A stretch of 64,000 bases of DNA. Source: Pseudomonadota bacterium (lineage in GTDB: Bacteria; Pseudomonadota; Alphaproteobacteria; Rhodobacterales; Rhodobacteraceae). The stretch is from positions 1 to 64,000 of the forward strand of contig JAJZVD010000012.1 of NCBI GenBank assembly GCA_021845805.1, given 5' to 3'. Of the stretch, positions 5,275-63,436 are shown piece after piece. The notes beneath the pieces are model-generated. The model did not search any database. It was not told where the DNA came from and was given only the letters and a program-made list of their open reading frames with translations. The number at the start of each line of letters is the position of its first letter. The stretch's first letter is position 1. Made by a program: the position numbers and the translations under genes.

Positions 5275-7041
5275 ATGGCAAAGACGCGCGGCACGGAGAG
5301 CGGGCGGCACGCGGGCGATTGGGCCCGGCGGCGGCTGCGCTGGGCGAACCGCTGGCAGGCCCGGCGGAGCACGCTGGCGCGCGTCTCGACCGGGTTCGTC
5401 AGCCAGCCAGAGCCGCGCACCATCGGCAGTTTCGCCCGCGGGCGGCAGCTGGTGGCCGGAAATTTCCTGTTCGCGGGTTTCCTGATCCAGGGCCCCGACG
5501 TGGCGATCTGGGACCTGCCGATGCCCGATCCGGGGTTCGAGGAGGCGCTGCACGGCTTTGCCTGGCTCGATGACCTGGCCGCGGTGGGCGATGGCCCGGC
5601 GCGCACCCGGGCGCAGGTCTGGACCTTTGGCTGGATTTCCCGCTATGGCCGCGGGCGCGGTCCGGGCTGGACGCCCGACCTGGCCGGGCGGCGGCTGATC
5701 CGCTGGATCAACCACGCGCTGTTCCTGCTCGCGGGCCAGCAGCGCCCGGCGGCGGCGGGCTATTTCCGCAGCCTCGCGCAGCAGACCGACTTCCTCGCCC
5801 ACCGCTGGGAGGCCGCGCCCCCCGGCCTGCCGCGGATCGAGGCGCTGACCGGGCTGATCTATGCGGGCCTGTCGCTGACCGGGATGGAGGCGCATGTGGC
5901 CCCCGCCGTGGCCGCGCTGGCGCAGGAATGCGAAAGCCAGATCGGCATGGAAGGCGGCATCGCCTCGCGCAACCCCGAGGAACTGCTCGAGGTGTTCACT
6001 CTGCTGACCTGGGCCGCGCAGGCGCTGGCCGAGGCGGGCCGGATGGCGCCCGAGGCGCACCGGGCGGCAGTCGAACGCATCGCCCCGACGCTGCGCGCGC
6101 TGCGCCATGCCGATGGGGGGCTAGCGCGGTTTCACGGGGGCGGGCGGGGGCTGGAAGGGCGGCTGGATCATGCGCTGGCGGCCTCGGGCGTGCGCGCTGC
6201 GCATCACGAGGGGCTGGCCATGGGCTTTGCCCGGCTCGCCGGCGGGCGGACCAGCGTGATCGTGGATGCCGCCGCCCCGCCGATGGGCGCGGCCTCGGTG
6301 AACGGCCACGCCTCGACGCTTGCCTTCGAGCTGACCTCGGGGCGGCGGCCGCTGATCGTCAGCTGCGGCTCGGGCGCGCCCTTCGGGCCGGAGTGGCGGC
6401 GGGCCGGGCGGGCCACGCCGTCACATTCGACGCTGGCGATCGAAGGCTATTCCTCGTCCCGGCTGGGCCCGGTGTCGCGCCGCGCGGGGCGGGACGAGCC
6501 CCTGGTGGAACGCGCGCAGGTGATCCATCTTCGCCTGACCGACACGCCGGATGCGCACGGGCTTCTGGCCGGGCATGACGGCTACGCGGTCTCGCACGGG
6601 TTGACCCACATGCGGGCGCTGACCCTGTCGGCCGACGGGCGCATCCTTCTGGGCGAGGACACGCTGGGCGCGCTGACGGCGGCCGAGGAACGACGGCTGG
6701 CGGTGATCGGGCGCGCGGGCCCGGTGCGCTATGCGCTGCGGTTCCACCTGCACCCCGACGTGGATGCCGAGATCGACCTTGGTGGCAGCGCAGTGTCGCT
6801 TGCACTGAAAAGCGGGGAAATCTGGGTGTTCCGGCACGAGGGCGGGGCGGTGCTGACGCTGGACCCCTCGGTCTATCTGGAAAAGGGCCGCCTGAAGCCA
6901 CGCGCCGCGCGGCAGATCGTCCTGTCCGCGCGGGTCGAGGGCACGGCGAGCCAGATTCGCTGGACCTTGTCGAAGGCGCAGGATACCCCGCTGGCCATCC
7001 GCGACCTGGAGCGCGACGAGTCTGCCCCCGCCGAGACCTGA
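5275..7041 (+). CDS. Heparinase II/III family protein
   Basis: C-terminal heparinase II/III features ([50 protein letters not shown]); sits between rsmB and purH. Confidence 0.85.
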
Positions 7042-7057
7042 GCCAAAGGAGCCCCGC

Positions 7058-8647
7058 ATGACCGACCTTCTGCCGATCCGCCGTGCGCTGATTTCCGTAT
7101 CCGACAAGACCGGGATGATGGACCTGGCGCGGGCGCTGTCGGCCCGGGGGGTCGAGATCCTGTCCACCGGCGGCAGCGCGGGCGAGATGCGGGCCGCGGG
7201 CCTGCCGGTGCGCGACGTGGCCGACCTGACCGGCTTTCCCGAGATGATGGACGGCCGGGTCAAGACGCTGCACCCCCGCGTGCATGGCGGGCTTCTGGCG
7301 CTGCGCGACAACCCGGGCCATCAGGCGGCGATGGCCGAACACGGGATCGAGCCGATCGACCTTCTGATCGTGAACCTTTACCCGTTCGAGGCGACGGTGG
7401 CGAAGGGCGCCGACTACGACACCTGCATCGAGAACATCGACATCGGCGGCCCGGCGATGATTCGGGCCGCGGCCAAGAACCACGCCTTTGTCACGGTGCT
7501 GGTGGATGTGGGCGACTATGCCGCCCTGCTGGCCGAACTGGACGCGAATGACGACCGCGTGTCCTTCGCCTTCCGGCGGAAGATGGCGCAGGCGGCCTAT
7601 GCCCGCACCGCGGCCTATGACGCGGCGGTCTCGACCTGGATGGCGGGTGCCATCGGCGAGCCCGCGCCGCGCCGTCGGGCCTTCGCGGGCACTCTGGCCC
7701 AGACCCTGCGCTATGGCGAGAACCCGCATCAGGCGGCGGCCTTCTATCTGGACGGCTCGAACCGCCCCGGCGTGGCCACCGCCCGCCAGTGGCAAGGCAA
7801 GGAGCTGAGCTACAACAACATCAACGACACCGATGCCGCCTTCGAACTGGTGGCCGAATTCGCCCCCGATGCGGGCCCGGCCTGCGCCATCATCAAGCAC
7901 GCGAACCCCTGCGGCGTGGCGCGGGGCGGCAGCCTGCTGGACGCCTACCGGCGCGCCTATGACTGCGACCGCACCTCGGCCTTCGGCGGGATCGTGGCGC
8001 TGAACGGGGTGCTTGACGCCGAGACGGCGGAAGAGATCGTGAAGATCTTTACAGAGGTGGTGATCGCCCCCGACGCGACCGAGGACGCGAAAGCGGTCTT
8101 CGCCGCCCGGAAGAACCTGCGCCTGCTGACCACCGGCGCCCTGCCGGACCCGGCGGCGGCGGGGCTGGCCTTTCGGCAGGTGGCGGGCGGTTTCCTGGTG
8201 CAGGACCGCGACAACGGCCGGATCGGCGCCGCTGACCTGACGGTTGTGACCAAACGCGCCCCGACCCCGGCCGAGATCGAAGACCTGCTCTTTGCCTGGA
8301 AGGTGGCCAAGCATGTGAAGTCGAATGCCATCGTCTATGTGAAGGGCGGTGCCACCGTCGGCGTGGGCGCAGGCCAGATGAGCCGCGTCGATTCGACCCG
8401 CATCGCCGCACGCAAGGCGCAGGACATGGCCGAGGCGCTGGGGCTGCCCGTCGCGCCGACCCAGGGGTCTGTCGTGGCCTCGGATGCCTTCTTCCCCTTC
8501 CCCGATGGCCTGCTGACCGCGGCCGAGGCGGGGGCGACGGCGGTCATCCAGCCGGGCGGCAGCATGAATGACGACAAGGTGATCGCGGCGGCCGATGCCG
8601 CGGGGCTGGCGATGGTGTTCACCGGTCAGCGGCACTTCCGGCACTGA
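7058..8647 (+). CDS. purH: Bifunctional AICAR transformylase/IMP cyclohydrolase
   Basis: [21 protein letters not shown]...STGGSA...[13 protein letters not shown]...[29 protein letters not shown]. Confidence 0.98.
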
Positions 8648-53394: not shown

Positions 53395-53550
53395 CGGTTC
53401 TCCTTCCGTCGCGGCGAAGCCTAAGCGGGGCGCAGGGGAATGGTCCAGCCCCGCGATGCAACACGGGTTTGTGCAATCGGGCGGGGCGCGCCCACTGGAC
53501 CTTGCCCCCGGTCGGCGTATGTTCCCGCCAAACGGGACAGGACGCACGGA

Positions 53551-54936
53551 ATGGATCAGGCAGGCTGGCAGGAACGGCCCATGGCAGCACGGGTCGCGGC
53601 AGACGGGCTGGCCATGCCGCGCCGGGCCTTTGCCTGGGCCACGATCATCCTTGGGCTGACGCTGGCGGTGCTGGACGGCTCGATCGCCAACGTGGCGCTA
53701 CCCACCATCGCCGAAGAGTTCAAGGCGGACCCTGCGGTCTCGATCTGGATCGTCAACGGCTACCAGCTTGCCATCGTGATGGCGCTTCTGCCGCTGTCGA
53801 CGCTGGGGGAACGCTACGGCTACCGCTGGGTCTACCTGTACGGGATCCTGCTGTTCACCGTCGCCTCGCTGGGCTGCGTGCTGGCGCCATCGCTTCAGGC
53901 GCTGACCGTGGCGCGGGTGGTGCAGGGGCTGGGGGCCGCCGGCCTGATGAGCGTGAATGCCGCGGTGCTGCGCTATACGGTGCCGCAGGTGAAGTTCGGC
54001 GCGGCGATCGGGATGAACGCGCTGGTGGTGGCCGCGGCCTCGACCGCGGGGCCCGCGATTTCCGGGGTTCTGCTGGCGCTGGCAAGCTGGCGCTGGCTCT
54101 TTGCCATCAACCTGCCGCTGGGCGTTCTGGTGCTGGTGCTGGGCTGGCGCAGCCTGCCCGACAGCGACCGCACCCATGACCGCTTCGATGTGCCAAGCGC
54201 GGTGCTGAGCGCGCTGGCCTTCGGGCTGGTCGTGACCATCATCGACAGCTTCGGCCATGCGATCGCCTGGGGCATCGTGCTGCCGCAGGTGGTGGCCTGC
54301 GTGCTGGCGTTCATCTGGCTGTTTGCCCGGGCCCGCCGGACGGCCCGGCCGATGCTGCCGCTGGACCTGCTGCGGTTGCCGATCTTCTCTCTGTCGATCA
54401 GCACCTCGGTTGCGTCCTTCGCGGCGCAGATGCTGGCCTTCGTCTCGCTGCCCTTCACCTTCCAGATGCTCTACCAGATGAGCCCGACGGGCGTGGGGAT
54501 CCTGATGATGCCCTGGCCGCTGGCGGTGGCCGTGGTGGCGCCGCTGGCCGGGCGGCTGGCCGACCGGTATTCCTCGGCCGTGCTGGGCGGGACAGGGCTG
54601 ATCCTGCTGGCGGTCGGGCTTGTGCTGCTGGGCCTCTTGCCCGCGCATCCCGCGGATTGGGACATCGCCTGGCGCATGGCGCTGTGCGGCGCGGGGTTCG
54701 GGCTGTTCCAGTCGCCCAACAACCGCACGATGATCGCCGCAGCCCCGCGCGAGCGCAGCGGTGCCGCCAGCGGGATGCTGAGCGTCGCGCGGCTGATGGG
54801 GCAGTCCATCGGCACCGCGCTGGTGGCGCTTTTGCTGGCGCAGTTCGGCATCGCCGGGGCGGTGACGGCGCTGTTCACCGGCGCGGCCTTCGCGGCGGTG
54901 GCGGCCGTCTTCAGCCTGACGCGGCTGGCCGTCTAG
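53551..54936 (+). CDS. MFS transporter, DHA2 (14-TMS drug:H+ antiporter) family
   Basis: AVLDGSIANVALPTIAEEF...WIVNGYQLA...LGERYGYRWVYLYG. Confidence 0.92.
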   Translation: MDQAGWQERPMAARVAADGLAMPRRAFAWATIILGLTLAVLDGSIANVALPTIAEEFKADPAVSIWIVNGYQLAIVMALLPLSTLGERYGYRWVYLYGILLFTVASLGCVLAPSLQALTVARVVQGLGAAGLMSVNAAVLRYTVPQVKFGAAIGMNALVVAAASTAGPAISGVLLALASWRWLFAINLPLGVLVLVLGWRSLPDSDRTHDRFDVPSAVLSALAFGLVVTIIDSFGHAIAWGIVLPQVVACVLAFIWLFARARRTARPMLPLDLLRLPIFSLSISTSVASFAAQMLAFVSLPFTFQMLYQMSPTGVGILMMPWPLAVAVVAPLAGRLADRYSSAVLGGTGLILLAVGLVLLGLLPAHPADWDIAWRMALCGAGFGLFQSPNNRTMIAAAPRERSGAASGMLSVARLMGQSIGTALVALLLAQFGIAGAVTALFTGAAFAAVAAVFSLTRLAV

Positions 54937-54970
54937 GTGGCCGGGCGCGGGCGCGCGTGGCTCTCTTTGC

Positions 54971-54985
54971 CGCCGCAATGCGGCG
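54971..54985. promoter_or_regulatory. 15-bp perfect 7-1-7 palindrome CGCCGCA-A-TGCGGCG upstream of arsR-type gene
   Basis: Direct reading; 40 bp before the ATG at 55026. Confidence 0.4.
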
Positions 54986-55025
54986 TGCTACATCTTGTGC
55001 CGACGAACCAGAGGATTGCACGGCG

Positions 55026-55367
55026 ATGAGCCTGATCGACTACGCCCAGAATTGCGCGCCCGAGCCTCGCGCACCCAGCGCGATCGACATGCTGGACAAT
55101 GCCGAGAAGACGACCGAGTTCCTCAAGGCCCTGTCGCATCCCGCGCGGCTGGTGATCCTGTGCCGCCTGGCCGAAGGGCCGCTGACGGTGGGGGAACTGG
55201 AAGCCTTCCTCGAGTTGCCGCAATCTGCCGTGTCGAAGCAGCTGGCCCGCCTGCGCGAGGATGAACTGGTCGATTGCCGCCGCGACGGGCGGACCATCAC
55301 CTATTCCCTGAGCGACGAGAGGACGCGGCGCATCATCCGCGCCCTCTATGACGAGTTCTGCGCCTGA
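55026..55367 (+). CDS. ArsR/SmtB-family regulator, candidate sulfane-sulfur sensor (sHdrR/SqrR-like)
   Basis: ALSHPARLVILCRLAEGPLTVGELEAFLELPQSAVSKQLARLREDELV; Cys46 and Cys112 (66-residue spacing); convergent with tusA. Confidence 0.85.
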   Translation: MSLIDYAQNCAPEPRAPSAIDMLDNAEKTTEFLKALSHPARLVILCRLAEGPLTVGELEAFLELPQSAVSKQLARLREDELVDCRRDGRTITYSLSDERTRRIIRALYDEFCA

Positions 55368-55370
55368 CGC

Positions 55371-55598
55371 TCAGGCGACGTGGCGGATGACGAAGGAATA
55401 GACCCCGCCTGCCTGGTTCGACGAGACCAGCTCGTTGCCCGTGGTGCGGCAGAAGGCCTCGAAATCCTTCACGGCGCCGGGGTCGGTTGCCAGCACTTCC
55501 AGCGTAGCGCCCGTGGGCATGTCCTTCAGGGCCTTCTTGGTGCGCAGGATCGGCAGCGGGCAGTTCAGCCCCTTGGCGTCCAGAGTCTGATCGGCCAT
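55371..55598 (-). CDS. tusA: TusA family sulfurtransferase
   Basis: LDAKGLNCPLPILRTKKALKDMPTGATLEVLATDPGAVKDFEAFCRTTGNEL. Confidence 0.95.
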   Translation of the reverse strand: MADQTLDAKGLNCPLPILRTKKALKDMPTGATLEVLATDPGAVKDFEAFCRTTGNELVSSNQAGGVYSFVIRHVA

Positions 55599-55610: not shown

Positions 55611-56102
55611 TCAGATGTACAGGTTGATGTCGCTGCGGGTCGCCACGTCGACCCACGAGGCCGCGCCGCCGAGCACCGGCCCGTCGATCATGTCCTCTTT
55701 CTTGTATTCGAAGAGATCCATGGTCATCTGGCAGGCGATCATCTTCACGTCCGCCTCCAGCGCCAGGTCGCGCAACTCCTCGATCGAGGCCACGCCCTTC
55801 TTCTTGATCATGTTCTTCATCATGTTCGTGGTCAGCGCGGTGGCGCCGGGCATGGCGGCAAGGATGTTCGGCATCCCCATGTGCATGCCCATCATCGGCA
55901 TTTCCATCGCCGCGTTGCCCAGGGGGTTGATCTTGAGGTTCAGGTCCTTCTTCAGCAGGGCGAGCCCGTAGAAGGTGAAGAACATGGTGGTGTCGATGCC
56001 CATCGCGGCCGCCGTGGTGGCCAGGATGAAGGGCGGGTAGGCCCAGTCGAGCGTCCCCTTGGTGACGATGATCGTCATCGACTTGGCGTTGTCTTCGCTC
56101 AT
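55611..56102 (-). CDS. DsrE2-type DsrE/DsrF-like family protein
   Basis: MTIIVTKGTLDWAYPPFILATTAAAMGIDTTMFFTFYGL...VKMIACQMTMDLFEYKKEDMIDGP. Confidence 0.9.
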   Translation of the reverse strand: MSEDNAKSMTIIVTKGTLDWAYPPFILATTAAAMGIDTTMFFTFYGLALLKKDLNLKINPLGNAAMEMPMMGMHMGMPNILAAMPGATALTTNMMKNMIKKKGVASIEELRDLALEADVKMIACQMTMDLFEYKKEDMIDGPVLGGAASWVDVATRSDINLYI

Positions 56103-56207: not shown

Positions 56208-56648
56208 TCAGGCGGCGCAGCCCGCGAAATTGTCGGCCGCCATCTTCGCTTCGTAGGGGCCCGCCACCTCGGCGCCGCTGGTCAGTGCGGCGGCGGCGGC
56301 GGCATCGGCGGGCTTCACCTTCACCATCCAGCCCGCGCCATAGGGTTCCGAGTTCGCGAGCTTGGGGTTCGAGGTCAGGTCGTCGTTCACCGCCACGATC
56401 TCGGCGTCGAACAGGATCTTGGCGGGGCCGACCCATTTGCCGCTTTCGACCGTGGCCACCGACTTGCCCGCGCCGATCGTCTTGCCCGCCTTCTTGGCCG
56501 TGAAGGCGACCAGTTGGCCGGCCATGCCGGTCGCGATCATCGTCATGCCGACGGTGTAGGTGCCATCGCCCTCGGGGCGGTACCACAGGTTGTTGTCGAC
56601 ATCGTAAAGCAGGTCGTCGGGAAGGTTGCAGCCACGGACCACGGGCAT
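56208..56648 (-). CDS. lbpA: Lipoate-binding protein LbpA (GcvH-like) of the sHdr system
   Basis: MPVVRGCNLPDDLLYDVDNNLWYRPEGDGTYTVGMTMIATGMAGQLVAFTAKKAGKTIGAGKSVATVESGKWVGP; lipoyl-Lys context ESGKW; genomic context. Confidence 0.9.
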   Translation of the reverse strand: MPVVRGCNLPDDLLYDVDNNLWYRPEGDGTYTVGMTMIATGMAGQLVAFTAKKAGKTIGAGKSVATVESGKWVGPAKILFDAEIVAVNDDLTSNPKLANSEPYGAGWMVKVKPADAAAAAALTSGAEVAGPYEAKMAADNFAGCAA

Positions 56649-56663
56649 TTGATGGCTTCCTCT

Positions 56664-57134
56664 TCAGGCTTGGGGGGTGGAAGGGGTCGGTTCGGCGGTA
56701 CGGATGGGGCGGGAGGAACAGCAGAACTCTCCCAGCCCGTCGGATTCGAGCTTGCCGCCGACAAACAGCGCCAGATGCCGCACGACCATCGCGCCCAGGC
56801 GGATGTTGCGTGCGGTGTCCGGCCCTGCCGGGTCAAGGCGGATCAGATTGTGGTGCCACACCGCCTCGCGGCAGGTCTCGCGGCAGGCGTTGAAGCTGGG
56901 GTTGCCGCGCGCGGCCTGCCGGTGCAGGGCCAGCAGGCGGAAGCCTTCCGCGGTGGCGGTGGTCGGGGTCTGCCCCTTGGCGGCAAGCCAGGCCAGAAGC
57001 ACATCCTCGCCCATCGCCAGCAACTCGTCGGCCAGCGCGGGGGCGCGGGCGGCAAGGTCGGCGTCCGCGGCGGCGGCGATCTGGTCGGTCCGGTCCTCGA
57101 TGTCCTCGATCGACCGGCGGTATCCTTCGGTCAT
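56664..57134 (-). CDS. Uncharacterised Cys-containing protein, translationally coupled to shdrB2
   Basis: 156-aa ORF; ATGA overlap with the shdrB2 stop; FNACRETCREAVWHHN and C-terminal EFCCSSRP. Confidence 0.8.
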   Translation of the reverse strand: MTEGYRRSIEDIEDRTDQIAAAADADLAARAPALADELLAMGEDVLLAWLAAKGQTPTTATAEGFRLLALHRQAARGNPSFNACRETCREAVWHHNLIRLDPAGPDTARNIRLGAMVVRHLALFVGGKLESDGLGEFCCSSRPIRTAEPTPSTPQA

Positions 57135-58057
57135 GCCAGGCCCTTCTCTTTCAACAGCGGGCGGGCGTCCGAAAAGTTTTCCTGAACGGCCACCCGGTTC
57201 GGCGACAGGCCAAGCGCCATGCCCAGAAGCTGCGTGAAGTAGAGAATCTTCACGTTCGTCTTTCTACCAAGAACCTTCTCGGCACGGATTTGATGCATCT
57301 CAAGTCCGGTGTGGCAAGTCGGGCATTCCGTCGCGATCACGTCGGCGCCGCAGGCCTCGGCCGTGGTCAGGATGTTCAGCACAAGCTTGGTGGACGTGTC
57401 GCTGTCCGACAGCGAATGCGCCCCGCCGCAGCAGGCGGTCTTCAGCGGAAAGTCCACGTTCTGCGCCCCCGCCGCCGCCAGGATGTCATCCATGAAATGC
57501 GGCTTGGCGGTCGACTCGCTGCCCGGCCCCTTGTCCTTCTCGGGGAAGATGTGGCGCGGGCGGGTGTACATGCAGCCGTAGTAGTTGGCGACCCTGATCC
57601 CGTTCAGCGAGTTCTTCACCCGGCGGCGGATTTCATCTTCGCCCACCGCCTTCTTGATCCAGTCGAGCGCGTGGATGGTTTCCACCTTGCCCGGCTCATA
57701 GGTCTTGTGGCCCGCCTTCTTCGACAGCCGGTCGTTCACCTCGACCGACGCATCGTCGTGGCTCAGGTCGTATTCGGCCTTCTTGAGGTTGTGATAGCAG
57801 CCGTTGCAGGGCGCCATCACGGTGTCGAAGCCCATCTCCTCGGTGATCGAGAGGTTGCGGGCCGACAGATAGGTCTGGATCTTCGGATCGATGTTCTTCA
57901 CCTCCATCGCGCCGCAGCAGTTCCAGTTCTCGATCTCGACCAGGTCCAGCCCCAGTTCCTTGCCGACCGCCTTGGTCGAGGCGTTGTAGGCGTGGCCCGA
58001 CCCTTCCAGGGCGCAGCCCGGATAGTAGGCGACCTTCTTGTAATCCCCGTCAGCCAT
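57131..58057 (-). CDS. shdrB2: sHdrB2, heterodisulfide reductase subunit B-like (CCG domains)
   Basis: VAYYPGCALEGSGHAYNASTKAV...NWNCCGAMEV...CNGCYHNLKKAE...TACCGGAHSLSD...ATECPTCHTGLEMHQ. Confidence 0.93.
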   Translation of the reverse strand: MADGDYKKVAYYPGCALEGSGHAYNASTKAVGKELGLDLVEIENWNCCGAMEVKNIDPKIQTYLSARNLSITEEMGFDTVMAPCNGCYHNLKKAEYDLSHDDASVEVNDRLSKKAGHKTYEPGKVETIHALDWIKKAVGEDEIRRRVKNSLNGIRVANYYGCMYTRPRHIFPEKDKGPGSESTAKPHFMDDILAAAGAQNVDFPLKTACCGGAHSLSDSDTSTKLVLNILTTAEACGADVIATECPTCHTGLEMHQIRAEKVLGRKTNVKILYFTQLLGMALGLSPNRVAVQENFSDARPLLKEKGLA

Positions 58058-58803
58058 CACTCTGCCCCCTTCGCGTCGAGCCCCAGCGCCTTGCGGTTGG
58101 TGGCTTCCACCTCGTGCACGTATTCGTTGATCGCGGCGCGGGCGCGGCCCCAGCCCCGCGTCTTCGGGCGGAACACCGTGCTCAGCCCCAACCGGATCAG
58201 GTAGAAGACCGGGAAGCGCCGGATCAGCCCCAGGATCATGGTTTCAAGCCAGGGCTGGCGCAGCGGCTGGCCGGTGTCCTGCAGGAAGTTGCGCAGCACC
58301 AGCCCGTCTTCGATCTTGCCGCGCTGGAACACCTGCGCCGAGAACCCTTCGTCGAAGATCGTCGAAGGCGACTTCGGCGTATGGCCCTTCAGCTCCAGCC
58401 AGTGCGCGGTCGCCTTCATCACGCCTTCGGGCGCCACGTCGCGCGGGCAGGCGTAGGTGCATTTGTTGCACGACACGCATTGCCAGATGATGTCCTTGTC
58501 GCGCAGCAGCTCGTCCTCCATCCCCAGCCGGATCAGGTAGATCCAGTAGCGGGGATTGAATTCGGGATTGATCGCGTTGACCGTGCAGGCGTTCGTGCAA
58601 CTGCCGCATTGCCAGCAGCGGTGGATGTTCTCGCCCCCCGGTAGGGCCGCGATCTCTTCCTGAAGGTTCTCGTTGTAATCGGTGATCGACCGGCCCTCGA
58701 TGAAGGTGGACCAGTGGCCCGACACATCCATCCCGTCGATCACAAGGTGATCGTGCGTCACCAGATTTTCCGGACGGATCAGGGATTTTTCGTGGATGGG
58801 CAT
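58057..58803 (-). CDS. shdrC2: sHdrC2, heterodisulfide reductase subunit C-like (2x[4Fe-4S])
   Basis: CWQCGSCTNACTVNAINPEFNPRYWIYLIRLGM...WQCVSCNKCTYACPRDVAPEGVMKA. Confidence 0.93.
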   Translation of the reverse strand: MPIHEKSLIRPENLVTHDHLVIDGMDVSGHWSTFIEGRSITDYNENLQEEIAALPGGENIHRCWQCGSCTNACTVNAINPEFNPRYWIYLIRLGMEDELLRDKDIIWQCVSCNKCTYACPRDVAPEGVMKATAHWLELKGHTPKSPSTIFDEGFSAQVFQRGKIEDGLVLRNFLQDTGQPLRQPWLETMILGLIRRFPVFYLIRLGLSTVFRPKTRGWGRARAAINEYVHEVEATNRKALGLDAKGAE

Positions 58804-59687
58804 TACGATGCCTCCTGCTGCGTGATCGCCGGGAGCGTTCCCAGCACATGCGCCGATCCGTCGATCAGCTTCAGCCGCGTGCGGCCGGTTTCGGTATCCA
58901 CCGCATCCAGCCCCAGCATCCGCCGGGTATGGGCCATCGGGTCGCCCGCGCTGGAGAATTCCGAGCGCAGGTATTGCCCGCCCCGGTCGTTGATGTAGCC
59001 CGCGTAGATGTGCGCCAGCAGCAGGTCGGCGTAGAACGGCAGGTCGCGGAACACGCCTTCGCCCTTCAGGAACCCTTCCAGTTCGTCGCGCAGCGTCGTG
59101 AAGGCGGTGAAATCATCGGCCACGGTGATCTTCACCGCGTCCACGTCATCGGCGAACCAGATCTCGCGCAGCACGCCGGTTCCGACGCGGGCATCCCAGA
59201 TCCAGCGGGTCATCAGCGGGTAGCGGGCGGGGGCGGTGAAATGCAGCGCCTCGGCGGCAAGGTCGCGGACCCAGCGATGCGCCTTGTCGCGCGGGAAGGA
59301 CGCGCAGAAGGCGGCCATCCGGGCATCGGCCGTGGCCGCATCGTCGGCCCCGTCCAGCAGACCGGCCAGCCGCCCCTGCATTTCCCAAAACGCGTTATCG
59401 GCCAGCCAGCCCCCGATGCGGCGGCGCACCGGCGTGATGAAGGCGGCCAGGTCAAGAAACTCGGGCTCGGTCAACTGTTCCAGCCTGCCCTTGCCCAGCA
59501 ATTCCTCGAACAGCGAGGCCTTCAGCGCCAGCGCGGTGACATAGCGTTCCACCCCGCCGGTGGGTTCGGCCGCTTCGACCAGATGCGCGAAGGCGCGCCG
59601 CAGCCGCGGCCCCGACAGATCCAGCACCGGCCGTTGCGGGGCCGGGGCAGGCGCGGGGACAGGCTTTGGCGCGCGGCCGAACAGCAT
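58803..59687 (-). CDS. sHdr cluster conserved protein (position of shdr-hyp)
   Basis: 294 aa, MLFGRAPKPVPAPAPAPQRPVLDLSGPRLRRAF...; between shdrA and shdrC2 with stop/start overlaps at both ends. Confidence 0.82.
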   Translation of the reverse strand: MLFGRAPKPVPAPAPAPQRPVLDLSGPRLRRAFAHLVEAAEPTGGVERYVTALALKASLFEELLGKGRLEQLTEPEFLDLAAFITPVRRRIGGWLADNAFWEMQGRLAGLLDGADDAATADARMAAFCASFPRDKAHRWVRDLAAEALHFTAPARYPLMTRWIWDARVGTGVLREIWFADDVDAVKITVADDFTAFTTLRDELEGFLKGEGVFRDLPFYADLLLAHIYAGYINDRGGQYLRSEFSSAGDPMAHTRRMLGLDAVDTETGRTRLKLIDGSAHVLGTLPAITQQEAS

Positions 59688-60739
59688 CACTCGGCCGCCG
59701 CCCGCACGGCCATGCCGGCAAAGTTCATCGCGGCCATGGCGGCGGCGTGACCCTGCGCGATGGAATCGTCGATCGTCTCGGGCCCCGAGGCGGCGCCGCA
59801 GGTGAACACGCCGGGCCGCGAGGTTTCGGCCAGATGCGCGTAGGTCGTCTGCTTGCCGATGTAGCCCCAGCGGTTCAGATCGACCCCGAAGACGGCGCTG
59901 ATCGTCATGTTGTCGACGTTCGGGTCCATGCCGACGGCGTGCACCACCATGTCGAACGGGATCGAGATCGGGCGCTTGACCAGCGTGTCTTCGCCCTTCA
60001 CCAGCAGGCGGCTGCCGTTCGAGGTGACCTCGGCGATCCGCGCCTTGACGTACTTGACCTTGAAGTTTTCCTGGCTGCCCCAGTAGTACTCGCCCTCGTA
60101 AAGGCCGAAGGTGCGGATATCCATGTAGTAGATGTAGACATTGGTCTTCGGCGACATCTCGCGGATTTCCATCGCCAGATTGGCCGACACCGTGCAGCAG
60201 ATCTTGGAACACCACTCGCGGCCGATCTGGCGGTCGCGCGAGCCGGCACAGAGCAGGATCGCCACGCGGTCGGGAACCCGGCCATCGGACGGGCAGCGCA
60301 CCCCCTTGCCCGACGAGATCATCTGTTCGACCATCGTCGTCGTCACCACGTCGGGATAGGTGCCAAAACCCCATTCCGGCTTGTTGATCGGGTCGAAGTG
60401 GGTAAAGCCCGTGGCCAGGATCGCCGTTTCCGCCTCGACCGTGCTGCCGTCCTTCAGCGTCGCCACGAAGTTGCCCGGCGTACCCGTGAAGGCTTGCACG
60501 GTACTGTTCACCTTCACGTCGACCGACGGGTTCGACACCACACGGTTGACCATGCCGCCGATGGCGTCCTTGGCCCATTCGTGGCTTGGCACCAGCTTTG
60601 CATAGCCCGACAGGATCGGCGCGCCGCCAAGGATCGCTTCCTTCTCGACCAGCACGGCCTTGCGGCCGGCCGAGGCGAGGGCGTGGGCTGCGGACAGGCC
60701 GGCCGGCCCCCCGCCGATGATGAGGACAGGCTTTGTCAC
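59687..60739 (-). CDS. shdrA: sHdrA, heterodisulfide reductase subunit A-like FAD/Fe-S protein
   Basis: VLIIGGGPAGLSAAHALASAGRKAVLVEKEAILGGAP...LLCAGSRDRQIGREWCSKICCTVSANLAMEI...VHAVGMDPNVDN; GTG start overlapping the shdrB1 stop. Confidence 0.93.
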   Translation of the reverse strand: MTKPVLIIGGGPAGLSAAHALASAGRKAVLVEKEAILGGAPILSGYAKLVPSHEWAKDAIGGMVNRVVSNPSVDVKVNSTVQAFTGTPGNFVATLKDGSTVEAETAILATGFTHFDPINKPEWGFGTYPDVVTTTMVEQMISSGKGVRCPSDGRVPDRVAILLCAGSRDRQIGREWCSKICCTVSANLAMEIREMSPKTNVYIYYMDIRTFGLYEGEYYWGSQENFKVKYVKARIAEVTSNGSRLLVKGEDTLVKRPISIPFDMVVHAVGMDPNVDNMTISAVFGVDLNRWGYIGKQTTYAHLAETSRPGVFTCGAASGPETIDDSIAQGHAAAMAAMNFAGMAVRAAAE

Positions 60740-62109
60740 TTATCCGCTCCTGCAAGGGCTTTCGGTTTCACATAGCCGGGGCCAGAGGTGATGGCGCGCT
60801 TCGGATCGTACAGGGTCTCGATCCGGCCGGCCTTCACCTCGTCGAGGTAGGTCTCGAACTCGGCCTTCTTGGCCTCCCAGTCGATCCCCATCTTCTCCAG
60901 CAGTTTTTCGAAGGGCGACGCATGCCAGTGCAGTTGCGCCAGCTTGTAGGGATGCGCGCCGCAGACCAGGGCTGCGAACTGGCAATCGGCCATCACCGGC
61001 AGCTCGTAGACCTTGTCCACCGCGCGGCCGATCCACTGGTTCTTGTCCAGCGTGGTGATGCAGCCGGTATCGTGGCCGACCATCACGTCGGATCGCGCCT
61101 CTTCCACCGCCACCTTGATCTTGCGGTCGATGGCGAAGGAGCGAGTGAATTCCCGCTCGCCGATGATGTGGCGGAAGCCGAAGCCGCAGCAGTCGTACCA
61201 GGTGGAATAGTCGATCACCTGCGTGCCCAGCGTCTGCAGAAGGCCGGTGGTGACGGCGACGCGGTTGCCGTCCATCACCGTGTCGTCATAGATCACGTCG
61301 TCCGGCACCATCTTGTAGACGTGGCAGGCCGGATGGACCGTGGTGCGGATGTGGGAGACGTCGATCTCCTGGTAGTTCCGGATCCGGTGGCGCATGACGT
61401 GCAGCCATTCCGAATAGTGCACGATCTCTTCGGGGATCAGCAGCTTGCCGTCGATCAGCCGCCCCAGCTTGCCGAGGATCTTCTTCACCTCGTCGCGCAG
61501 TTCGGCCGAATGCATCAGGAAATGCCGCATTTCCTTGTAGTTGCCGAACGACGTGCCGCAGTGGACCAGCGGATAGTAGGTGCCCTCCGGCAGGCCCTGC
61601 GCCTTGGCGCTGACATAGGCCTGATGGAAGTTGCGCAAGAACACGGCGGCAAGGCTGACCACATTGCCGATGCCCGATCCGTGGTAGTTCCAGGCGGTGC
61701 ACGAGGTCTGGTCCGTCTCGTCCAGATAGGTCAGCTCCATCTTGTTCATGAGCCAGAGGATCGAGGACGGATAGCCCGGGATGTTGCCGCACTGGCCGCA
61801 GGACTTGTGGTGCCAGAGGTTCGTGGTGGGGATCTTCTTGTCCCAGCCGTAAAGCGTCTTGGCCATGATCGGCTCGTTGTGCTCGCCGACCCGGTGGACA
61901 AGGATCTCTCCGTCCTTCTCCAGTTGCCACATGGCGTCGCGGATGTCCTCGCGCCGCTCCTTGCCCATCAGCAGCGCCCGCTTGTCGATCTTGGCTTCCA
62001 CCCAGTCGGTCGCCCGCCGGGCGTCCGCCGCGCTGAGGTTCGACGGCTGCCAGTCAGCCCCGAAGCCGGAAAAAGCCCCGGCCTTGCCTTCGTTCGTTCC
62101 GTTCGCCAT
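60736..62109 (-). CDS. shdrB1: sHdrB1, heterodisulfide reductase subunit B-like
   Basis: HHKSCGQCGNIPGYPSSILWLMNKMELTYLDETDQTSCTAWNYHGSGI...HPACHVYK...YDCCGFGFRHI...GCITTLDKNQW. Confidence 0.92.
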   Translation of the reverse strand: MANGTNEGKAGAFSGFGADWQPSNLSAADARRATDWVEAKIDKRALLMGKERREDIRDAMWQLEKDGEILVHRVGEHNEPIMAKTLYGWDKKIPTTNLWHHKSCGQCGNIPGYPSSILWLMNKMELTYLDETDQTSCTAWNYHGSGIGNVVSLAAVFLRNFHQAYVSAKAQGLPEGTYYPLVHCGTSFGNYKEMRHFLMHSAELRDEVKKILGKLGRLIDGKLLIPEEIVHYSEWLHVMRHRIRNYQEIDVSHIRTTVHPACHVYKMVPDDVIYDDTVMDGNRVAVTTGLLQTLGTQVIDYSTWYDCCGFGFRHIIGEREFTRSFAIDRKIKVAVEEARSDVMVGHDTGCITTLDKNQWIGRAVDKVYELPVMADCQFAALVCGAHPYKLAQLHWHASPFEKLLEKMGIDWEAKKAEFETYLDEVKAGRIETLYDPKRAITSGPGYVKPKALAGADK

Positions 62110-62149: not shown

Positions 62150-62908
62150 CTATTCGTCGTCGTCCTCGTCGTCGTCCTGCTCTTCGAGGAACTCGTCCCA
62201 CTCCTCGCGCTTCTCATCCATCACGTCGGACACCACGTCGAAGAGGTTCTCATCGACCGTTTCCAGCTGGTCGAGCACGCCTGTCGCCTCCCAGATCGTG
62301 TAAAGCTCGACCGAGGTCTTCAGGTTCACGATCCAGGCCGTATCCAGCGTGTGCATGGTGGGCATGGGGATCGCCTTGCGCAGGATCATCAGCGGCGCGT
62401 CCACCTTGGCGACGTTCGGGCCCCAATCGGGGAAGGCCTCCTTGGTGATCATGTTCGGCGCAAGCTGGTTGCCGGTGGACACCAGCTTCAGCAGGACGCG
62501 GCTGAAGGGGCGCAACACGTCCTTGGCCGATTCCAGCCCGTGCTTGATCGCGACTTCGCGCATGATCATCACCAGGCCGCCGGGCGAGTTTTCGAACGGG
62601 CAGCGCGCGGCGCAGGTGTAGCACTGGGCGCAGGCCCAGATCTTTTCCTGCATCGCGTCGTAGATGCCTTCCAGATTCTCGGTCCACAGCAGCTGCACGA
62701 TCTCGCGCGGGCTGTAATCGTAGTAGTGGGCCGAGGGGCAGGTGGCGGTGCAGATCCCGCAGTTCAGGCAGCCGTGGATCTCGCTCGAGTAGACCGAGTG
62801 GCTGCGGATGTCCTCGAAGATTTCCTCGAGCTTCTCGTAGGCCACCACCGGCTTTTCCGACACCGGGTCGGAAATCGGCGGGTTCGGCATCTGGACGTGA
62901 GCGTTCAT
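62150..62908 (-). CDS. shdrC1: sHdrC1, heterodisulfide reductase subunit C-like with acidic C-terminal tail
   Basis: CLNCGICTATCPSAHYYDYSPREIVQLL...WACAQCYTCAARCPFENSPGGLVMIMREVA...EEQDDDEDDDE. Confidence 0.93.
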   Translation of the reverse strand: MNAHVQMPNPPISDPVSEKPVVAYEKLEEIFEDIRSHSVYSSEIHGCLNCGICTATCPSAHYYDYSPREIVQLLWTENLEGIYDAMQEKIWACAQCYTCAARCPFENSPGGLVMIMREVAIKHGLESAKDVLRPFSRVLLKLVSTGNQLAPNMITKEAFPDWGPNVAKVDAPLMILRKAIPMPTMHTLDTAWIVNLKTSVELYTIWEATGVLDQLETVDENLFDVVSDVMDEKREEWDEFLEEQDDDEDDDE

Positions 62909-62942: not shown

Positions 62943-63323
62943 TCAGTAGGTCAGCACCTTCGCGTCGTCGTTTTCCATGATGTCCTCGATGACCTTGGCG
63001 CCGCCCACGATGCCCTCGCATTCGGGGATCAGGTCGTCGGCGGTCATGTCGAAAAGATCGAGGTTGGGCGAGCAGCAGTAGAACTTGGCGCCCGCCTCAT
63101 GCGCGTCCTTGATGAAGTCGTAGACCGTCTTGGGGCTGCCCGGCTTGACCACCAGCTTTTCGGCCACGCCCTTCTTCATCAACTGGCCCGCGGTGGCGGT
63201 GCAGATCACGTCGACCTCGTAGTCCATCGCGGCCGCGACCGTGGCCTGGAAGAACGGGGCGCCCAGTTCCTCGCCGTTACGGGGGTCGGTATTGACCATC
63301 ACGATGATGAGTTTGCTCGCCAC
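62943..63323 (-). CDS. DsrE3-type (DsrE3C-like) sulfurtransferase
   Basis: RBS AAGGAG then GTG start, VASKLIIVMVNTDPRNGEELGAPFFQATVAAAMDYEVDVICTATAGQLMKKGVAEKL...AKFYCCSPNLDLFDM; vicinal Cys at 83/84. Confidence 0.88.
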   Translation of the reverse strand: MASKLIIVMVNTDPRNGEELGAPFFQATVAAAMDYEVDVICTATAGQLMKKGVAEKLVVKPGSPKTVYDFIKDAHEAGAKFYCCSPNLDLFDMTADDLIPECEGIVGGAKVIEDIMENDDAKVLTY

Positions 63324-63436
63324 GTCGTTCTCCTTCAGCGCGACGACCTGCGCGGCTGTCGCATGACTGTTTTCGAATATTTGCATAGACCGGAACATAT
63401 GTCGAGAATGGAATATGCGTTCCCGACAGTGTTCGT

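Follow-up and report, generated by a model that had tools for sequence, protein, structure and literature searches.

The two-cysteine group of ArsR-type regulators includes SqrR, BigR, SoxR, YgaV and HlyU. For RcSqrR and YgaV, the site ATTC-N8-GAAT has been reported (PMC9774250). Two-cysteine ArsR regulators are stated to be rarely encoded near shdr genes, and those that are linked to shdr form no single clade (PMC12423496). Among sHdr sulfur oxidisers, sensing of the substrate is known from one organism, Hyphomicrobium denitrificans, where it involves sHdrR and SoxR together with the Sox system. In Hyphomicrobium, TusA has been proposed as the sulfur donor to sHdrR and SoxR (PMC11582611).

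A two-cysteine ArsR regulator at the end of an shdr cluster

The window analysed here, a stretch of 64,000 nucleotides from a Rhodobacteraceae genome, carries a gene for a further two-cysteine ArsR regulator, located at the 3′ end of an shdr cluster. The following features are referred to:

53440..54936 (+): MFS (DHA2-type) efflux gene, upstream of arsR and linked to it in the loci of genus g1 and in L037
54967..54994 (+): putative arsR promoter, TTGCCG-N16 (ending TGC)-TACATC
55026..55367 (+): arsR, two-cysteine ArsR regulator of 113 amino acids, with the C46/C112 pair and K71 in the recognition helix
55371..55598 (-): tusA, convergent with arsR; its stop codon is 3 bp from that of arsR
55611..56102 (-): dsrE2 (NF047629, 228 bits, above the cut-off)
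56208..56648 (-): lbpA, lipoate-binding GcvH-like protein
56664..57134 (-): conserved hypothetical cluster gene without a Pfam match
57131..58060 (-): shdrB2
58057..58803 (-): shdrC2
58800..59690 (-), approximate limits: hypothetical shdr-cluster gene, conserved in the syntenic loci
59687..60739 (-): shdrA
60736..62103 (-): shdrB1
62150..62908 (-): shdrC1
62943..63323 (-): dsrE3C-type sulfurtransferase gene; its GTG start codon (63323) is preceded by AAGGAG
63396..63419 (-): candidate operator of the shdr operon, CGCATATTCCATTCTCGACATATG (CAYATTC-N8-RCATRTR), 24 bp, 72 nt before the dsrE3C start

On the minus strand the cluster reads dsrE3C-shdrC1-B1-A-hyp-C2-B2-hyp-lbpA-dsrE2-tusA, and upstream of dsrE3C there is a glutamine-amidotransferase-like gene followed, beyond the window, by a lipoate-protein ligase gene. 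An earlier note on this DNA had placed arsR 3 bp from tusA; the distance is correct, but co-transcription does not follow, as tusA is encoded on the minus strand and runs towards arsR. For the same reason, arsR is located outside the shdr operon and not beside its promoter, which is about 8 kb away. Both stop codons are spanned by the inverted repeat CGCCTGA-CGC-TCAGGCG (55361-55377), which is not followed by a T run. A further inverted pair, GGTCCAG/CTGGACC, lies between the MFS gene and a divergent ABC-permease gene (53398-53616 in the window); it is conserved in six loci and is possibly the operator of another regulator.

The layout of the putative arsR promoter (TTGnnn-N16-TAnAnT, extended TG) is the same in 11 loci, and it was not called by a generic promoter scan, which uses a stricter consensus. 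A scan of the region before arsR (54937-55025) revealed no copy of the element found upstream of dsrE3C. Autoregulation via this region was rejected because it contains, instead of the element, an ordinary promoter with a conserved layout of its own.

The ArsR protein contains cysteines at positions 10, 46, 84 and 112, of which C46 and C112 are 66 residues apart. Its best solved relative, detected by phmmer, is SqrR of Rhodobacter capsulatus (PDB 13ct/6o8l, E = 5e-24). The two proteins are about 50% identical. Their alignment is free of gaps over residues 16-113 and pairs C46 and C112 with both SqrR cysteines, which we take to be C41 and C107. C46, C112, Q66 and S70 are invariant across 27 two-cysteine homologues from several lineages, so the 66-residue spacing is not due to chance. 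Within the same alignment, all 16 members of the window clade have Lys at position 71, and all 11 others have Gln there. Functional roles for C10 and C84 were rejected, since neither is conserved in the clade.

The protein matches Pfam HTH_5 and has the winged-helix fold. In the AlphaFold model (pLDDT 88.7, pTM 0.76; 25 sequences), C46 is predicted to lie in helix 39-49 (helix 2) and C112 at the end of the last helix (98-112). A Foldseek search with the model ranked SqrR chains in their reduced, disulfide and tetrasulfide states first, followed by HlyU and BigR and then by metal sensors. The SqrR-like spacing of Cys46 and Cys112 claimed in the earlier note is thus confirmed by the ungapped alignment, the invariance in 27 sequences and the modelled helix positions. 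Non-equivalence to the SqrR pair, which the note had named as a point against it, was checked in the alignment and the modelled helices and did not occur.

For the placement within the family, a maximum-likelihood tree of 45 proteins was used, with SmtB, ArsR (6j05) and the window genome's own ArsR-type protein L003 as outgroup. The window ArsR sits in its own clade of 18 rows (support 99/99), separate from the SqrR/SoxR clade (96/86), the BigR branch (99/91) and an HlyU-related clade (99/94); the deep branching order among these four groups is not settled by the tree. SqrR itself is found with L002, L021, L049, L051 and L052, and a second two-cysteine ArsR of the window genome, encoded on contig C45, likewise groups with SqrR and SoxR. 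The split between the two-cysteine group and the metal-sensor outgroup is supported by 97/87, the metal sensors in the tree being few and long-branched. The BigR model NF040642 of NCBIfam scores 91.4 bits on the window ArsR, compared to a curated cut-off of 155. A linkage to sox, as expected for SoxR, is absent from the gene context, and no SoxY was detected in the window genome by a search that found SoxY in 12 of 19 genomes. Sox genes are therefore not the target, and Sox is an unlikely route for the signal. SoxY was likewise not detected in the shdr-bearing genomes G001, G005, G074, G208 and G313, and further shdr genomes of the same genus do contain it.

Judged from its sequence, the window ArsR belongs to the two-cysteine group (SqrR/BigR/SoxR/YgaV/HlyU), but it is not SqrR, SoxR or BigR proper. 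Its family membership gives good support to the inference that it responds to persulfide.

Linkage of two-cysteine ArsR genes to shdr

The junction between arsR and tusA-shdr is kept in L004-L008, L013, L016-L018 (Rhodobacteraceae, Oricola, Nitratireductor) and L054, in which arsR is truncated by the contig end. In total, the clade is convergent behind tusA-shdr in ten genomes from several alphaproteobacterial families. In a family sample of 298 genomes, shdrB1 was found in seven and the window clade in three, all of which are among these seven. After exclusion of the window genome (297 sampled), both clade-bearing genomes are among the six with shdr (Fisher p = 3e-4, the genomes not being independent of each other). 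The window arsR is thus genetically tied to shdr, and this tie is supported across genomes. Exceptions are G001, in which arsR and shdr are located on different contigs, and the genomes of L009, L012, L014 and L019, in which the clade is present and no shdrB1 was detected.

In L009 (Oricola indica, 6772-7298), arsR lies beside a tusA-like stretch and no shdr genes were detected; this may be the remnant of a lost cluster. The MAG BP8.bin108 contains several copies of the arsR clade (L010, L011, L015, L054), one of which ends at a contig edge behind shdr-tusA.

Furthermore, shdr loci were gathered by shdrB1 alone, ignoring ArsR, and 21 uncut loci were kept after leaving out the window's own genome and duplicates. 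A two-cysteine ArsR is encoded within about 10 kb in 10 of these 21 loci, compared to about 1% expected under random placement, an expectation that rests on an estimated two to three two-cysteine ArsR genes per genome; the sample is small and phylogenetically clumped. Three arrangements could be distinguished: genes of the window clade behind tusA and convergent with it, HlyU-related genes co-directional with the cluster and directly after lbpA (L059-L063, L065, L074), and genes upstream in divergent orientation (L067, L068). The three arrangements suggest that two-cysteine ArsR genes were recruited to shdr more than once, which agrees with the published absence of a single clade (PMC12423496). 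The counts also suggest that such a linkage is commoner than the published "rarely near shdr" (PMC12423496).

The ArsR genes adjacent to lbpA are located at L059:15273, L060:15375, L061:1075, L062:15188, L063:2221, L065:15297 and L074:15336. Their products are HlyU/YgaV-related and their hosts belong to the Rhizobiales and other Alphaproteobacteria; in L074, two two-cysteine ArsRs stand back to back. An ArsR-rhodanese fusion without the 66-residue cysteine pair is encoded at L039:1292-2155, about 2 kb from the shdr cluster. A search of plasmids for shdr returned only Acidithiobacillus.

Candidate shdr operator and its probable regulator

The sequence CAYATTC-N8-RCATRTR or a close variant precedes dsrE3C in all 14 aligned loci, at a distance of 40-81 nt from the start codon; its halves are always 10 nt apart. 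It resembles the SqrR/YgaV site ATTC-N8-GAAT, with RCAT in the right half instead of GAAT, and L057 carries ATTC-N8-GAAT exactly. As the element was derived from the same 14 loci, their motif scores are not independent evidence; independent tests were a control with the pattern reversed and the genes next to the other sites. In the window genome, 12 sites were found with the pattern (at most one mismatch) and none with the reversed control. The intergenic GAAT-type sites (CAYATTC-N8-GAATRT) of this genome (G000; loci L105-L108) are:

C20:79221: before a rhodanese gene
C40:15862: before a YgaP-like membrane protein gene
C58:15754: before an HlyD/AcrB-type RND-efflux pair
C78:53638: before a carboxymuconolactone-decarboxylase-family gene near an SQR-like gene

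These sites fit an ordinary SqrR-type regulon with typical reactive-sulfur targets, the regulator of which is probably the SqrR-like paralogue on C45.

An interpretation of the dsrE3C element as a plain sigma-70 promoter was rejected, because no more than about 14 nt separate its TTGACA-like piece from its TATA-like piece and the gap between the halves is constant at 10 nt. In the window, the operator possibly overlaps a -35 hexamer, TCGACA (TCGACA-N18-TATAAT in L005). The element is just as well conserved in L038, L039 and L040, shdr genomes in which the window clade was not found, and its assignment to the Lys71 clade alone was rejected on this ground.

We read the window ArsR as a two-cysteine, sulfane-sulfur-responsive repressor with the shdr operon as its main target and with an operator that it probably shares with the paralogue, and assign a probability of about 0.62 to this reading as a whole. 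By analogy with SqrR and SoxR (PMC10451225, PMC12423496), the reduced homodimeric winged-helix protein would bind an AT-rich operator and block transcription. A rise of persulfide or polysulfide in the cytoplasm would lead to a sulfur bridge between Cys46 and Cys112 within one subunit, and the bridged ArsR would leave the DNA, allowing expression of the target genes. The likeliest main target would be the dsrE3C-shdr-lbpA-dsrE2-tusA operon via the element at 63396-63419, which the SqrR-like paralogue would probably use as well. The identity of the protein, the equivalence of its cysteine pair, its clade, the conserved linkage and the conserved element are direct results, from which we infer binding, repression, the persulfide signal and the sharing with the paralogue. 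Of the "cluster-specific persulfide-responsive repressor" proposed in the earlier note, the response to persulfide finds strong support in family membership and an action on shdr, by repression, is likely. The cluster specificity must be taken as tentative in view of the second two-cysteine ArsR, the element in genomes without the clade, the unlinked genes in G001 and the four clade-bearing genomes without detected shdrB1. The last three points also count against the main reading, as do the lack of a copy of the element before arsR and the fact that a gene is not necessarily the target of the regulator gene it converges with.

The shdr operon might instead be controlled mainly by the SqrR-like paralogue on C45; the window ArsR, though a sensor of reactive sulfur, would then have a different main target and be a mere neighbour of shdr. 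The C45 protein falls with SqrR and SoxR in the tree, its recognition helix is that of SqrR with Gln71, the shdr element is a variant of the SqrR/YgaV-type sites CAYATTC-N8-GAATRT before the rhodanese, YgaP-like and RND genes, and it persists where the window clade is missing. However, its right half is RCAT and not GAAT in the motif-forming loci, and the cross-family linkage to shdr belongs to the window clade and not to the paralogue, so that we regard this reading as rather unlikely. Quite improbable is a regulation of the adjacent MFS efflux gene, with arsR and MFS forming a pair and shdr located next door by chance or by co-transfer. The MFS gene lies immediately upstream of arsR in genus g1, within which alone it is shared, the pair stays together where shdr is located elsewhere (L037, G001), and efflux pumps can be under the control of two-cysteine ArsRs (PMC12423496). 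L008, L013, L016, L017 and L018, however, keep the arsR/tusA-shdr junction without the MFS gene. The upstream region of MFS contains no ATTC-type site, for which reason the gene was rejected as a target.

A metal(loid)-sensing function would fit the ArsR fold, the score of a general NCBIfam "metalloregulator" subfamily model above its cut-off and the P-type ATPase gene adjoining the relative L014. But the sox-linked L052 protein likewise scores above the cut-off of this model, which hence does not discriminate. Classical metal sites of ArsR/SmtB proteins consist of alpha3N (CxC) or alpha5 (Asp/His/His/Glu-type) ligands. Both are absent from the window ArsR, as its third helix is devoid of CxC/CVC and its only His, H38, lies outside the last helix. 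The SqrR pair is retained in the whole clade, and the clustering with metal-sensing ArsR proteins that would have spoken against a sulfur sensor was checked and did not occur, the tree separating the window ArsR from SmtB and ArsR. We therefore consider metal sensing very improbable. More tentatively, the Lys71 clade could be devoted to the control of shdr, with a recruitment separate from that of Hyphomicrobium sHdrR and of the HlyU-like proteins adjacent to lbpA; it would read the operator with RCAT for GAAT and perhaps receive its sulfur signal from the neighbouring TusA.

With shdr, no detectable SoxY, two two-cysteine ArsRs and a conserved candidate operator, the window genome offers a simpler case for the control of shdr by cytoplasmic sulfane sulfur alone.

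Comparison with described regulators

The kind of sensor is already known; this branch and its link to shdr are not previously described in the literature examined. SqrR of Rhodobacter capsulatus (PDB 6o8k-6o8o) is like the window ArsR in fold, length, the cysteine pair 66 residues apart in the same helices and the sulfur context. It belongs to a separate clade, is linked to sqr whereas the window arsR is linked to shdr, and has Gln where the window protein has K71 in the recognition helix; moreover, the window genome encodes a separate SqrR-like paralogue.

sHdrR of Hyphomicrobium denitrificans (Hden_0682; PMC12423496) is also a two-cysteine ArsR encoded beside the shdr cluster and the proposed shdr repressor. 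Its gene is the first of the shdr operon and divergent from soxT1A (PMC10451225), whereas the window arsR is convergent at the 3′ end and has its own promoter. The third cysteine of sHdrR (Cys63) corresponds to E59 in the window ArsR.

SoxR of Paracoccus, Ruegeria and Hyphomicrobium belongs to the same two-cysteine group, but the sox-linked proteins L049 and L052 fall into the SqrR clade, unlike the window ArsR, the genome of which is without detectable SoxY. BigR of Xylella and Agrobacterium is a member of this group as well; the window ArsR is well under the BigR cut-off, on a separate branch and without linkage to blh (rhodanese-dioxygenase). The HlyU/YgaV-like ArsRs directly after lbpA in shdr clusters of Rhizobiales share with the window ArsR the two cysteines and the linkage to shdr, but they form a different clade, are co-directional with shdr and have Q71, whereas the window ArsR has K71 and its gene is convergent.
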